Below, piece by piece: positions 19,744 through 26,745 of a stretch of DNA of 64,000 nucleotides (the first letter of the stretch is position 1; each line of letters starts with the position of its first letter). This stretch comes from Jiangella alba. Its GTDB lineage: Bacteria > Actinomycetota > Actinomycetes > Jiangellales > Jiangellaceae. The DNA lies in assembly GCF_900106035.1 (NCBI RefSeq), contig NZ_FNUC01000002.1, positions 248,001 to 312,000 on the forward strand. The letters are read 5' to 3'. Made by a program: the position numbers and the translations under genes. The notes beneath the pieces were generated by a model that did not search any database, had not been told where the DNA came from, and worked only from the letters and a program-made list of their open reading frames with translations.

Positions 19744-21198
19744 TTGCGACCTGTGTTCCGAGCCGCTGGGGCCGTCGTGGCGACCTCGGGGGTTCTCTGC
19801 CTAGGCGGAGCGGCAGGTCTCCCGGGACCGACCGCCCTGGTCTCCTCGTCCGACTATCCCGGTGACGACGGCTCCGACGGCATCTATCAGGGCCGCGGCG
19901 ACGCCATCATCTCCAGCGATCCGACTGACGGTCAGGCCTCGGTCACGGTGGTCGCCGACAATGCGGCGGCCGTCGCGGCCGGCTTCATCGTCGGCTCCAC
20001 GCCGTCGGCCGGTGTCGTCGCGCAGACCCTCGCCAGCGGCCTGGGCATCCCCGGCATCGTGCTCGAGGCGTACCAGAACGCCGCGGCGCAGCTGACGCTG
20101 CAGAACCCGGGCTGCGGCATGCGCTGGGAGATCCTCGCCGGCATCGGCAAGATCGAGTCCGGGCACGCCAACGGCGGTCAGGTCGCGGCCAACGGCGACG
20201 TCGTGCCGCGCATCGTCGGCCCCGCCCTCAACGGCAACGGCTTCGCGTCCATCGGCGACAGCGACGGCGGCCGCTGGGACGGCGACACCGTCTGGGACCG
20301 CGCCGTCGGCCCCATGCAGTTCATCCCGGGCACCTGGAAGGCGTACGGCGCCGACGGCAACGGCGACAGCGTCGTCGACCCGCACAACGTCTTCGACGCC
20401 ACCGTCGCGGCCGCGAAGTACCTGTGCGCCGGCGGCGGCAACCTCGCCGACGAGGCGCAGTTGCGGGCGGCGCTGCTGCGCTACAACCCGTCCAGCGCGT
20501 ACGTCGAGAACGTGATGTCCTGGATCCGGGCCTACGACAACGGCAACGGCTACGTCACCGACACCCCGGGCCCCGGCCCGGCCGGTCCGGCGCTGCCGCC
20601 GCCGTCGAACGACGCGCCGAACCCGTCCGGCTCGCCGAGCCCGACGCCCACCACGCCGCCCGACCCGCAGCCGACGACCCCGCCGAACACCCCGCCTCCC
20701 ACGACACCCCCGACGACGCCTCCCACGACGCCGCCGACCACCCCGCCGACGACTCCGCCGACGACGCCTCCCACCGAGATCCCGACGGAGACGCCCACGC
20801 GGCCTCCGACACAGACGCCCACGCCCACCCCCACGCCGACTCCGACTCCGACCGAGACGCCGACGCAGACCCCGACGGAGACTCCGACCGAAACGCCCAC
20901 GGAGACCCCGACGGAGACGCCTACGGAGAATCCGACCGAGCCTCCGGTCGAGGAGCCCGACGGCGAGTGCCCTGACGACGGCACGGGCGTCGATCCGGCA
21001 ACCGGCGAGGTCATCGACCCCGACTGCGAGACGCCGCCGACGGAGGACCCGTCGACGGAGCCGCCGGACATGACCGGCTCGCCGTCGCCGTCCGATGAGT
21101 CGCCCGAGCCGACCGCGGCCGAGACGCCGAACACCGCGACGCCGACCGCGCGCACGACCAGCCGGCGCCGCTGGCTCGGCCGGCTCGGCGTGCGCTGA
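19744..21198 (+). CDS. Secreted lytic transglycosylase with Pro/Thr-repeat tail
   Basis: A 484-residue exported murein hydrolase. The TTG start has GGGAG upstream. A signal peptide (about 1-30) is followed by a transglycosylase domain (about 115-265): GCGMRWEILAGIGKIESGHANGG with catalytic Glu138, DRAVGPMQFIPGTWKAYGADGNGD and VAAAKYLCAGGGNL. From about residue 272 the chain is low complexity: PPTT and PTET repeats, then an acidic stretch with Cys residues (DGECPDDGTGVDPATGEVIDPDCE). Such tails span the wall. The enzyme would cleave glycan strands during growth. The repeats at 20640-20960 are purely coding. Convergent with the flippase gene. Confidence 0.88.
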   Translation: MRPVFRAAGAVVATSGVLCLGGAAGLPGPTALVSSSDYPGDDGSDGIYQGRGDAIISSDPTDGQASVTVVADNAAAVAAGFIVGSTPSAGVVAQTLASGLGIPGIVLEAYQNAAAQLTLQNPGCGMRWEILAGIGKIESGHANGGQVAANGDVVPRIVGPALNGNGFASIGDSDGGRWDGDTVWDRAVGPMQFIPGTWKAYGADGNGDSVVDPHNVFDATVAAAKYLCAGGGNLADEAQLRAALLRYNPSSAYVENVMSWIRAYDNGNGYVTDTPGPGPAGPALPPPSNDAPNPSGSPSPTPTTPPDPQPTTPPNTPPPTTPPTTPPTTPPTTPPTTPPTTPPTEIPTETPTRPPTQTPTPTPTPTPTPTETPTQTPTETPTETPTETPTETPTENPTEPPVEEPDGECPDDGTGVDPATGEVIDPDCETPPTEDPSTEPPDMTGSPSPSDESPEPTAAETPNTATPTARTTSRRRWLGRLGVR

Positions 21199-23335: not shown

Positions 23336-23950
23336 ATGAGGGGCTATTTCCTGCCAGGGGTGTTCCTGGCCGTGGCGACCGGCGTGCTGGTCTTCGGGGG
23401 CGACTGGCTCGGGTTGGAGCTGGAACACGTCGCCCTGCTCGGGGCGGCGCTCGGTGGCGCGGCGGGCGTGGTGCCGGACCGCCAGCCGTGGGAGCGGGCG
23501 GCGGGGCTGCTGGCGGGGTCGGTGCTGGCGTGGCTGGGCTACGCGCTGCGGGCCGCCTGGCTGCCGGACACGTCCGCCGGGCGCGGGGTCGCCGCGATGC
23601 TGGTGGTGCTGGCGTGCCTGCTCATCGCGTTCCTGACGTCCGGCCGGCTGCCGCTGTGGTCGTTCCTGATCGGCGCGGCCGCGGTGGTCGGCTCGTACGA
23701 GGTCGCCTACACGGCCGCCCCGCCGGAGTTCGTCGAGACGTCGCCGACGGCGTTGACGACGGTGCTGCTGGCCGCCGCGTTCGGGTTCCTCGCCACCGTG
23801 TTCCTCGGCAACACCATCGAGGAGGAGCGGGCCCGCGAACGCGGCAGGTACTCCTCCGACGACGAACCGGACGCGGTCGGTCCGGAACCCGAGCCCGAAC
23901 CCGACGGCGAGACCGTCCGGGGCCCGTTCTGGGAAAGGGCGCTGCGATGA
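23336..23950 (+). CDS. Small polytopic membrane protein, unknown function
   Basis: A 204-residue protein with five or so hydrophobic helices in residues 1-165 (YFLPGVFLAVATGVLVFGG; VALLGAALGGAAGVV; AAGLLAGSVLAWLGYALRAAWL; GVAAMLVVLACLLIAFLTSGRLPLWSFLIGAAAVVG; TALTTVLLAAAFGFLATVFLG). It ends in an acidic cytoplasmic tail with an EPEPEPD run. The family is not recognised. GGAGAGGAAG gives a good ribosome site. Its stop overlaps the next ATG by 4 bp (ATGA), so it is coupled to the heptad-repeat protein and probably works with it, for example as a membrane partner. Confidence 0.75.
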   Translation: MRGYFLPGVFLAVATGVLVFGGDWLGLELEHVALLGAALGGAAGVVPDRQPWERAAGLLAGSVLAWLGYALRAAWLPDTSAGRGVAAMLVVLACLLIAFLTSGRLPLWSFLIGAAAVVGSYEVAYTAAPPEFVETSPTALTTVLLAAAFGFLATVFLGNTIEEERARERGRYSSDDEPDAVGPEPEPEPDGETVRGPFWERALR

Positions 23951-26745
23951 GCCGCCGGATCGCCGTGGCGGCCGCCGGCGCCGTCGCCCTCGCCCTCGTG
24001 GCCACGCCGACGGCGGCGGCCGACGTCGACGTGACGAACACGGAGACGGTTCAGGTGTACCTGAACGCCGACGGCGGCGTCGACCGCGCCCGCGTCTACG
24101 ACCAGCTCGACCTCACCGGCACGGGCAGCGTCGACCTGCGCAACCCCGTCACCACCGACGGCCTGCGCAACCTCGACGGCTTCGGCGGCACCGACACCGA
24201 GGACGGCGAGGCGCTGCTGCAGACCGATGTCGACGGGGAGCAGCGGCGGCGCACCGTGTCCGACTTCGCGGGCGACCTGCCGCTGTCGGTGGAGGTCGAG
24301 TACCGGCTCGACGGCGAGGTCGTCGACGCCGGCGACGTGGTGGGCGAGTCGGGCGAGCTGGAGGTGCGCTACCGAGTCGTCAACGAGACCGGCGAGCCGC
24401 GCGAGATCCAGTACGACGACGGCACCGGCACCATGGTGACCACCGAGGAGGAGGTCTACGTCCCGATGGTGGGGACGATGACCACGACGCTCCCGTCGTC
24501 GTTCACCAGCGTCCGCTCCGGCGAGGCGAACATGGGCGGCGACGGCCGCGGCGGCACCCGGCTGACGTACGCGCTGACGCTGTTCCCGCCGATCGGCTCG
24601 GCCGAGCAGGAGTTCGGCTACACCGCGATCATCGAGGACGGCGTCATCCCGCGGGCGACGCTGTCGGCGCTGCCGGTGTCGCCGCTGGACAGCCCGACCT
24701 ACGCCACCGGTGTGTCCGGGTACGAGGGCGGCATCGAGTCCGGCGCCGCGCTCACCGAGGGCGCCATGACCATCGACGAGAACCTGCTGCGGCTGCGTGA
24801 CGGCGCCGCCGACCTGCTCGGCGGGCTGATCCAGCTGCGCAACGGCGCGCAGGAGCTGAGCACCGGGCTGTCCGACCAGGCCGCGCCGGGCGCCCGCGAG
24901 CTGGCCGACGGGCTCGGCGACCAGCTGGCGCCGGGAGCGCGCGAGCTGCGGGCCGGCGCGAACGAGTTCTACCAGGGCGTCAACGGTGAGCTGGCGCCCG
25001 GAGCGCAGCGGCTGGCCGACGGCGCCGGCGTGCTGGCCGACGGGCTGTCGGAGCAGCTGGTGCCCGGCGCCGGTCAGCTGGCCGACGGCGGCGAGGAGCT
25101 GGCGGCGGGGCTGCAGGGACGGCTCGCGCCGGGCGCGGAGCAGCTGGAGGACGGCGCCGCCGCGGCCGCCGACGGCGCCGGCCAGCTGGCCGCGGGCCTG
25201 GAGACGGCCGGCGACCGCGCGCCCGAGCTGATCGGCGGGCTGGAGCAGGTCGGGTCCGGCCTGGACCGCGTCGACGCCGGGCTCACCCGCCTGTACGACG
25301 GCATCGGCGGGCTGCCCGAGCAGGCGCGGCCGCTGGTCGACGGCATCGACCGGCTGCGGGCCGGCATCGGCGACACCGACGAGGACGGCACCCTGCTCGG
25401 CGGGCTGGAGGAGATCCGGGTGGGGCTGCAGGAGCGGGCGGTGCCGGCGCTGCGGCAGATGGCCGAGGGCGTCTACCACGAGTCCGCCTCGGAGCCCGGC
25501 GCGTACCAGCGGATCGGCTGCGCGGTGCTGGTGCTCAACGACATCCTCACCGAGCGCACCAGCGGGTTCAACGCGGCCTGCTACGGCGAGAACGCGGCGG
25601 TGCTCGGCGCGCTGCGGCCGGTCGTCGGCTACGACGTCGACGAGCTGACGCAGACCGTGCTGACGACCCTGCGCGACCAGCTGGCCGACGGCCAGACCGG
25701 GCTGGCCAACCCGGACGACCCGCTGGACCAGGACACGCTGTACGGCGGCCTCAACACCCTGGAGGAGGCGCTGACCAGCGGCGACGGCGTGCTGCGCGGC
25801 CTGGTGCGGCTGCAGTGCGGGCTGTCCAACCGCTCCGCCGACGTCTGCCCCCGCGACGAGCCCGGGCTGCTGCAGGGCCTGAACCTGCTCGACGAGGGTG
25901 TGGGGCAGCTGGTCAGCGGCGTGGTCGGGTCGGTGCAGGGCGGTGTCGGCGAGCCTGACGACACCCCCGCCGACGAGACGCTGCGCGGCGGCGTGAACGG
26001 CCTGAGCGACGGCGTCGACCAGATCATCGCCGGCGGCAACGCCCTGATCTCCGGGCTCATGCAGCTCACCGACGGCGCGCACGACCTGCACGACGGCAAC
26101 CTGCGGATCTCCGACGGCGCCGGCGAGCTGGCGGCGGGCGCCGAGGCGGCGGCCGACGGCGCGGGCCGGCTGGCCGACGGCGCCGGGCAACTGGAGGACG
26201 GCGCCCGCGGCGCCGCCGACGGAGCCGGCCAGATCGAGGACGGCGCGGGTCAGCTGGCCGACGGTGCGGACGCGGCGGCCGACGGTGCCGGTCAGATCGC
26301 CGATGGTGCCGGGCAACTGGCCGACGGCGCCGACGAGGCCGCCGTCGGGGCCGGCGTCCTGGCCGGTGGCCTGGAAACCGCCGCCGACGGGTCGGTGCAG
26401 ATCTACGACGGCCTGCTGCAGGCCGCCCAGGGCGCGCCGCAGCTCGTCGACGGCGCCCAGCGGCTGTCGACCGAGGGCGCGTCGCAGTTGGCCGACGCCG
26501 GGCAGGAGACCGCCGCCGACTTCGGCACCCGGTACGCCCTGCTCGAGGCCGGCGCCGACCGCGCGACGAACGAGGCGCTGGTCAACGGCGCACCGGCTGG
26601 CGCGACGCTGAAGACCGCGTTCACGTACGAGATCCCGGAGGTGAGCGGCGAAGGCGGCCGCAACGTCACCCGCGGCGTGCTCGCGCTGGGCGTGTTCGCG
26701 GCCGCTGCCGCCGCGGCGACGCTGGTGCGCCGGCGCCGCGCCTGA
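23947..26745 (+). CDS. Exported xxxLxxG heptad-repeat membrane-anchored protein (YhgE/Pip-like repeats)
   Basis: A 932-residue surface protein. A signal peptide (1-26, ending TAAADVDV) precedes a globular N-terminal part of about 250 residues. Two regions of repeated Asp-Gly-Ala heptads follow (about 280-480 and 690-830; units such as GAGQLAD, GADAAAD and GAGQIED), of the kind called X-X-X-Leu-X-X-Gly in YhgE/Pip proteins. A segment between them contains four Cys (for example IGCAVLVLND, AACYGEN, LQCGLSNRSADVC). One C-terminal membrane helix ends in RRRRA. It lacks an LPXTG or LAXTG signal. Its ATG overlaps the preceding membrane protein stop. The elongated repeats suggest a stalk or helical solenoid; function unknown. 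Confidence 0.8.
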   Translation: MSRRIAVAAAGAVALALVATPTAAADVDVTNTETVQVYLNADGGVDRARVYDQLDLTGTGSVDLRNPVTTDGLRNLDGFGGTDTEDGEALLQTDVDGEQRRRTVSDFAGDLPLSVEVEYRLDGEVVDAGDVVGESGELEVRYRVVNETGEPREIQYDDGTGTMVTTEEEVYVPMVGTMTTTLPSSFTSVRSGEANMGGDGRGGTRLTYALTLFPPIGSAEQEFGYTAIIEDGVIPRATLSALPVSPLDSPTYATGVSGYEGGIESGAALTEGAMTIDENLLRLRDGAADLLGGLIQLRNGAQELSTGLSDQAAPGARELADGLGDQLAPGARELRAGANEFYQGVNGELAPGAQRLADGAGVLADGLSEQLVPGAGQLADGGEELAAGLQGRLAPGAEQLEDGAAAAADGAGQLAAGLETAGDRAPELIGGLEQVGSGLDRVDAGLTRLYDGIGGLPEQARPLVDGIDRLRAGIGDTDEDGTLLGGLEEIRVGLQERAVPALRQMAEGVYHESASEPGAYQRIGCAVLVLNDILTERTSGFNAACYGENAAVLGALRPVVGYDVDELTQTVLTTLRDQLADGQTGLANPDDPLDQDTLYGGLNTLEEALTSGDGVLRGLVRLQCGLSNRSADVCPRDEPGLLQGLNLLDEGVGQLVSGVVGSVQGGVGEPDDTPADETLRGGVNGLSDGVDQIIAGGNALISGLMQLTDGAHDLHDGNLRISDGAGELAAGAEAAADGAGRLADGAGQLEDGARGAADGAGQIEDGAGQLADGADAAADGAGQIADGAGQLADGADEAAVGAGVLAGGLETAADGSVQIYDGLLQAAQGAPQLVDGAQRLSTEGASQLADAGQETAADFGTRYALLEAGADRATNEALVNGAPAGATLKTAFTYEIPEVSGEGGRNVTRGVLALGVFAAAAAAATLVRRRRA

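Follow-up and report, generated by a model that had tools for sequence, protein, structure and literature searches.

A conserved gene pair of Jiangella encodes a six-helix membrane protein and a Leu/Gly heptad protein that may extend a membrane transporter into the cell wall

To our knowledge, it is little understood how cargo passes through the thick wall of one-membrane bacteria once it has left a membrane pump. In the MmpS5L5 system of mycobacteria, the wall part of a resistance-nodulation-division (RND) pump consists of an Ig-like subunit and of a coiled-coil tube that bears a tip disulfide and extends the pump outwards. This coiled coil is formed by 196 residues inserted into the transporter MmpL5, and the last part of the cargo path is left open for mycobacteria (PMC12501195). 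A second comparison is offered by the YhgE/Pip proteins, in which Leu/Gly heptads of the TIGR03057 type are joined to about six transmembrane (TM) helices. Here we describe a pair of overlapping genes, A and B, in a 64,000-nt stretch of Jiangella alba (contig NZ_FNUC01000002.1, forward-strand positions 248,001 to 312,000; hereafter the window, in whose own numbering all coordinates are given). Gene A encodes a six-helix membrane protein and gene B an exported, probably membrane-anchored protein rich in Leu/Gly heptads. Because relatives of B mostly adjoin a transporter or a similar membrane gene, the pair is probably part of a wall-spanning export machine, and we tentatively propose, at a little less than even confidence, that the two proteins assemble into a single envelope complex, which extends a transporter, probably one for export, outwards from the membrane. 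No description of the A-B pair or of a B-MMPL pairing was found in the open-licence literature. A separate coiled-coil protein beside varied transporters would make the passage of cargo through the wall directly testable, and the transporter-accessory reading offers a testable function for the unnamed domain of B, for A and for its DUF1097-like relatives.

Both genes lie on the forward (+) strand, A at 23336-23950 (204 residues) and B at 23947-26745 (932 residues). A polytopic 204-residue protein overlapping an exported 932-residue protein by 4 bp had been proposed in a preliminary description of this DNA, and this arrangement was confirmed: the stop of A and the start of B share the motif ATGA at 23947-23950, an overlap conserved in all nine loci compared (the window, seven other Jiangella and Nocardioides phosphati). 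Between the window and locus L007, differences at codon positions 1/2/3 numbered 16/10/57 in A and 87/77/213 in B; third positions were thus the most variable in both genes, which indicates that both evolve as coding DNA. The A protein of the window (contig C2 of genome G000) has 95% identity to A of named Jiangella species. Both genes were present in 12 of 12 Jiangella genomes searched, J. alba itself included, and the remaining 10 genomes of the family that were searched matched neither. Part of the neighbourhood is common to the window and Nocardioides phosphati, where the pair likewise follows a gene resembling polA (62% identity) and a divergent flippase-like gene (34%); a long-standing presence of the pair is therefore more probable than a recent acquisition.

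Relatives were collected from a phylum sample of 396 genomes, using a profile of the B N-terminal domain (E ≤ 1e-5) and an A profile (E ≤ 0.001). The former matched in 61 genomes, two of them (G413 and G023) only through the heptads of YhgE/Pip proteins, and the latter in 12. Every place from the B search was examined and classed by the directly upstream gene on the same strand. Besides that of the window there were 76 B genes, from which the two YhgE/Pip cases and 10 genes at contig ends were removed, leaving 64 testable places. A membrane partner was found upstream of B at 55 of these: 32 A-like proteins, one A-B fusion and 22 MMPL-like transporters. Four further places (L008 and L106-L108), found via the A query, are excluded from the 64, and their inclusion gives 36 A-like partners in 68. 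The Pfam MMPL model matched all four partners scanned, and the remaining 18, assigned by a profile built from those four, complete the 22, two of which (L144 and L148) are truncated by contig ends. Since many of these proteins had gone into the A6 profile itself, the A-like calls in the phylum are a classification and not an independent test. The fusion (L080:5708-7525), the only one found, is a natural single polypeptide of 606 residues almost without heptads. A plasmid tblastn search with one MMPL-type B (L113) gave no match. Beyond the phylum, clostridia may carry this N-domain next to MMPL as well.

Linkage of the two genes, on which the preliminary description had laid weight, held from the side of A: wherever it could be examined, A did not occur away from B (11 of the 13 matches of its own profile; of the other two, one lies at a contig end in G225 and one, of 54 residues at E = 4.8e-4 in G328, was dismissed as chance by eye). 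It did not hold from the side of B, which also occurs without A, beside another transporter or, at nine of the 64 places, without a detected partner. At one of these nine (L102), a six-TM gene that the profile had overlooked lies upstream. The B genes at L097, L138 and L143, for which no upstream membrane partner was detected, form a closely related trio.

Partner exchange was also apparent in a class sample of 393 genomes (B threshold E ≤ 1e-15). B occurs in 35 of them, at 47 listed places, and at all 47 a polytopic membrane gene lies directly 5′ of it. The partners were 35 A-like proteins (12 in the genus, 23 elsewhere), seven MMPL proteins with an A-like C-terminal extension (hereafter MMPL-A) and five ABC-permease-like proteins. 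Twenty of the 23 A-like partners outside the genus did not contribute to the A6 profile; their matches to it, at E values from 7e-53 to 4.9e-12, provide an independent test of A-like identity. The MMPL-A proteins (L218-L223 and L225) are about 960-1000 residues long and carry an extra C-terminal six-helix part that resembles A. The Pfam MMPL model matched five of five scanned (E from 3.4e-67 to 5.5e-75), L221 and L223 being assigned by profile only. Aligned to the A profile, the last 265 residues of the seven gave E = 1.5e-6 (probability 90%, 58 columns) and the rest E = 0.32; aligned to the MMPL profile, the front part gave 8.2e-19 and the last 265 residues 0.049. In L219, residues 771-952 were matched directly by the A model (E = 2.4e-4). 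Five of the seven MMPL-A genomes (G480, G738, G049, G684 and G454) carry a separate A-B pair too. In the 2.7-Mb genome G454, B occurs at six places, beside MMPL-A at one and beside A-like proteins at the other five (L212, L224, L225, L227, L228). The five ABC-type partners (L232-L236) come from five genomes of one family; PF02653 was found in four of four scanned, and the match of the adjacent B proteins covers only the latter half or so of the N-domain model. As far as gene context goes, with B beside MMPL/RND, MMPL-A, A-like or ABC permease genes, the earlier suggestion of a new secretion device found support.

Gene B itself begins with a signal peptide recognised by eye (residues 1-25, 23947-24021), followed by an N-terminal domain (residues about 26-265, 24022-24741) that belongs to no named family: it matched no Pfam or NCBIfam model, and beta strands are predicted at residues 113-243. 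Two heptad arms with limits set by eye, residues about 270-505 (24754-25461) and about 700-880 (26044-26586), flank a centre poor in LxxG (25462-26043), the proposed tip of a coiled-coil hairpin. The heptads described earlier are real: residues 281-890 contain 42 LxxG motifs, compared with an average of 15.1 (sd 3.3) and at most 27 in 2000 shuffles, and the TIGR03057 heptad model matched B in 13 stretches (E = 7.3e-37, 124 bits); all six TIGR03057 matches at E ≤ 0.001 in the J. alba genome fall in B. The Cys-containing insert was likewise borne out, as all four cysteines of B (525, 545, 624 and 634) lie in the LxxG-poor middle between the arms. At least two cysteines after the N-domain were present in 10 of 11 complete B proteins outside the genus with best or near-best scores (L106, L008, L108, L107, L067, L069, L068, L071, L073, L076 and L077); relatives lower in the score list mostly have none or one.

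The protein ends in a hydrophobic helix (hydropathy 1.85) followed by RRRR (26668-26742), so that B, described previously as exported, is by sequence and hydropathy probably anchored in the membrane by its C-terminus and not merely exported. A hydrophobic C-terminal helix was found in all 28 complete A-partnered B proteins outside the genus (at least 1.4; 25 at 1.6), in seven of seven from Jiangella, in six of six complete B beside MMPL-A, in the five beside ABC permeases and in seven of the eight complete B without a detected partner. Next to stand-alone MMPL it was absent from all 22 (top hydropathy 0.62). The anchor is thus absent solely there, a pattern that is compatible with B being held by A but does not prove it.

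The Leu/Gly heptads had suggested that A and B might be a YhgE/Pip protein split over two genes, with the membrane part on one and the heptads on the other. This idea did not stand, and we consider it very improbable. The likeness consists of the TIGR03057 heptads and of the joining of heptads to about six TM helices; TIGR03057, however, describes the repeat only, and its match to B is uninformative on the N-terminal domain or the partner. The N- and C-terminal domains are not common to the two, and A-B is encoded on two genes with the membrane part first. TIGR03061 and TIGR03062 matched neither A nor B up to E = 1, a profile of 26 A relatives compared with the C-termini of 21 YhgE/Pip proteins gave E = 0.53 over 7 columns, and the similarity of B to YhgE (E = 2.8e-13, 74 columns) is confined to the heptads; these null results and profile comparisons largely refute a split. 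Elsewhere in the genome, TIGR03062 gave two matches under its cut-off, both on other contigs.

Gene A is predicted, from a low-confidence model, to contain six main helices (residues 5-25, 29-44, 51-74, 80-102, 107-127 and 137-173), and by eye its two termini are both probably cytoplasmic. No Pfam or NCBIfam family matched A, and no characterised relative was found. PF03176 (MMPL) matched neither A nor B, and a comparison of the A profile with four MMPL partners gave E = 0.52; the two are thus not MMPL proteins. Among its relatives, those of a second clade match DUF1097 (PF06496; E ≤ 1 for 11 of the 26 rows aligned, with 7e-12 as the best value), a family whose function Pfam gives as unknown; L083 scores above the gathering score (30.9 vs 24.6 bits) and L086 below (20.0), whereas A of the window has no PF06496 match. 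Aligned as profiles, the A subfamily and the DUF1097-like subfamily gave E = 3.5e-4 over 159 columns at a probability of only 37%, and A is here taken as a distant DUF1097 relative and not a proven member. Of 26 aligned rows, 21 share an acidic residue at position 122, which falls within the region of the fifth helix. Together with the 35 of 47 class places at which A alone accompanies B, this residue would fit A as a small transporter or channel, with B as an outside sensor or gate that regulates it. We regard such an arrangement as unlikely, given that A lacks a characterised relative and that MMPL proteins with an A-like end suggest A serves a pump.

Structure prediction, which the preliminary description had recommended, was run separately for A and B from nine-row alignments, shallow because the rows were limited to the window and its related loci, and both models were poor. 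Mean pLDDT (predicted local distance difference test) was 52.0 for A and 46.9 for B, with about 72 at residues 521-580. Foldseek found nothing in the PDB for the B model at E ≤ 0.001. With VIA-align, residues 104-244 gave Z scores of about 8-9 with mu-homology and other beta-sandwich domains, and residues 378-753 a Z of 8.7 (root-mean-square deviation, rmsd, 2.3; 143 aligned) with the dynein stalk, an antiparallel hairpin; as the tool itself warns that Z values of this size are common, an antiparallel coiled-coil hairpin formed by the arms is a suggestion of the model. A PDB sequence search with B returned repeat-type matches, led by a BpaC adhesin construct with GCN4 (2.9e-7) and followed by apolipoproteins and coiled coils. 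The long coiled-coil ectodomain with its Cys-containing middle could also be a surface stalk, adhesin or tether for which A is merely the membrane anchor, chaperone or insertion factor, and stalk proteins, enterococcal PrgA among them, gave weak alignments with the low-confidence model of B (for PrgA, a Z of 8.2, within the common range, and an rmsd of 92). That relatives of B adjoin whole transporters (MMPL, ABC permease) and not a simple anchor speaks against this alternative, which we likewise regard as unlikely.

We return to the proposal that the pair extends a transporter. By analogy, A-B is best read as a functional equivalent of MmpS5/MmpL5 in which a separate protein provides the coiled coil in trans. 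The likeness is that B unites in a single chain what is predicted to be a beta domain, the heptad arms and the cysteines between them; the difference is that B is separate and longer and has Leu/Gly heptads, and that the window pair has no adjacent MMPL. We infer a physical complex, of which the A-B fusion and the A-like extensions of MMPL are indirect signs, and in which B would be exported via Sec and held by its C-terminal helix, with the beta domain near the membrane. The two heptad arms would form a long coiled-coil stalk or hairpin through the thick wall, with the cysteine insert at its tip; at 0.15 nm per residue, a single helix would reach some 35 nm for the first arm (about 235 residues) and 27 nm for the second (about 180), which would suffice for a thick wall. 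The six-helix A would hold B and connect it to an RND/MMPL-type transporter, and in some relatives the A-like part would be the C-terminal end of the transporter itself. In Jiangella, A-B would dock on an MMPL exporter encoded elsewhere, or A would move the substrate itself.

Several points weigh against this proposal. Its weakest step is the last: MMPL domain matches number 37 in the J. alba genome, spread over about 20 frames on contigs C1, C3 and C4, and none is on the contig of the window, so that one must assume either a partner acting in trans or A as the transporter. Gene context alone is no proof of a complex, the two models are poor and no partner was detected at the nine phylum places. 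The A-like identity of the MMPL extensions is supported by scores of moderate size over 58 of 202 columns. The C-terminal helix of B, being present also in ABC-adjacent and partnerless proteins, does not single out A. Repeated partner switching is not shown by a tree of 78 N-domains (44 rows with A, 15 with stand-alone MMPL and 19 ungrouped, no MMPL-A or ABC cases, which were found later, being included): it places one change per partner type, for which a single old switch between A and stand-alone MMPL suffices. Finally, the sole ABC operon read through (L233:2680-5897) has, by eye, binding-protein-like and ATPase-like genes 5′ of the permease and looks like an operon of the importer type that includes a heptad stalk protein, which would argue against export for that branch. 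A wider claim, which we hold to be doubtful, is that the B family serves single-membrane actinobacteria as a general, exchangeable adaptor on the outside of the cell, plugging onto RND/MMPL pumps, ABC transporters and six-helix A-type proteins and guiding their cargo across the wall in a Leu/Gly coiled-coil conduit; B would then play the part that periplasmic adaptor proteins have in Gram-negative bacteria.

An assignment of A-B to type VII secretion, in the manner of EsaA, is the least probable reading and highly improbable in our view. In its favour, YhgE/Pip proteins score on the EsaA N-terminal model and the genome encodes a sub-cut-off EccC-like protein (378 bits). The best EccC match, however, lies on another contig, and neither A nor B matched a type VII model. 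Altogether, four EccC-like matches under the cut-off were recorded: contig C4 carries three, of which two share a frame, and the fourth is on the contig of the window at a distance of about 190 kb; the EccC model, the one type VII component searched for there, gave no match in the window, and the linkage to type VII secretion raised earlier was not recovered.

The genes near A-B in the window include those for a glycosyltransferase, a methyltransferase and a flippase-like protein (the last under its gathering score), and their predicted functions hint at an envelope substrate. Clustering of neighbours yielded mainly antisense frames of B and genes common within single lineages, and no additional conserved partner is therefore claimed. 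In two other genomes, a gene that by eye resembles a secreted hydrolase lies immediately 5′ of A-B (L021:44-1450 and L022:1989-3353). In the window, the gene adjoining polA (19744-21198) encodes a protein with an SLT domain (PF13406) and a long Pro/Thr-rich tail.

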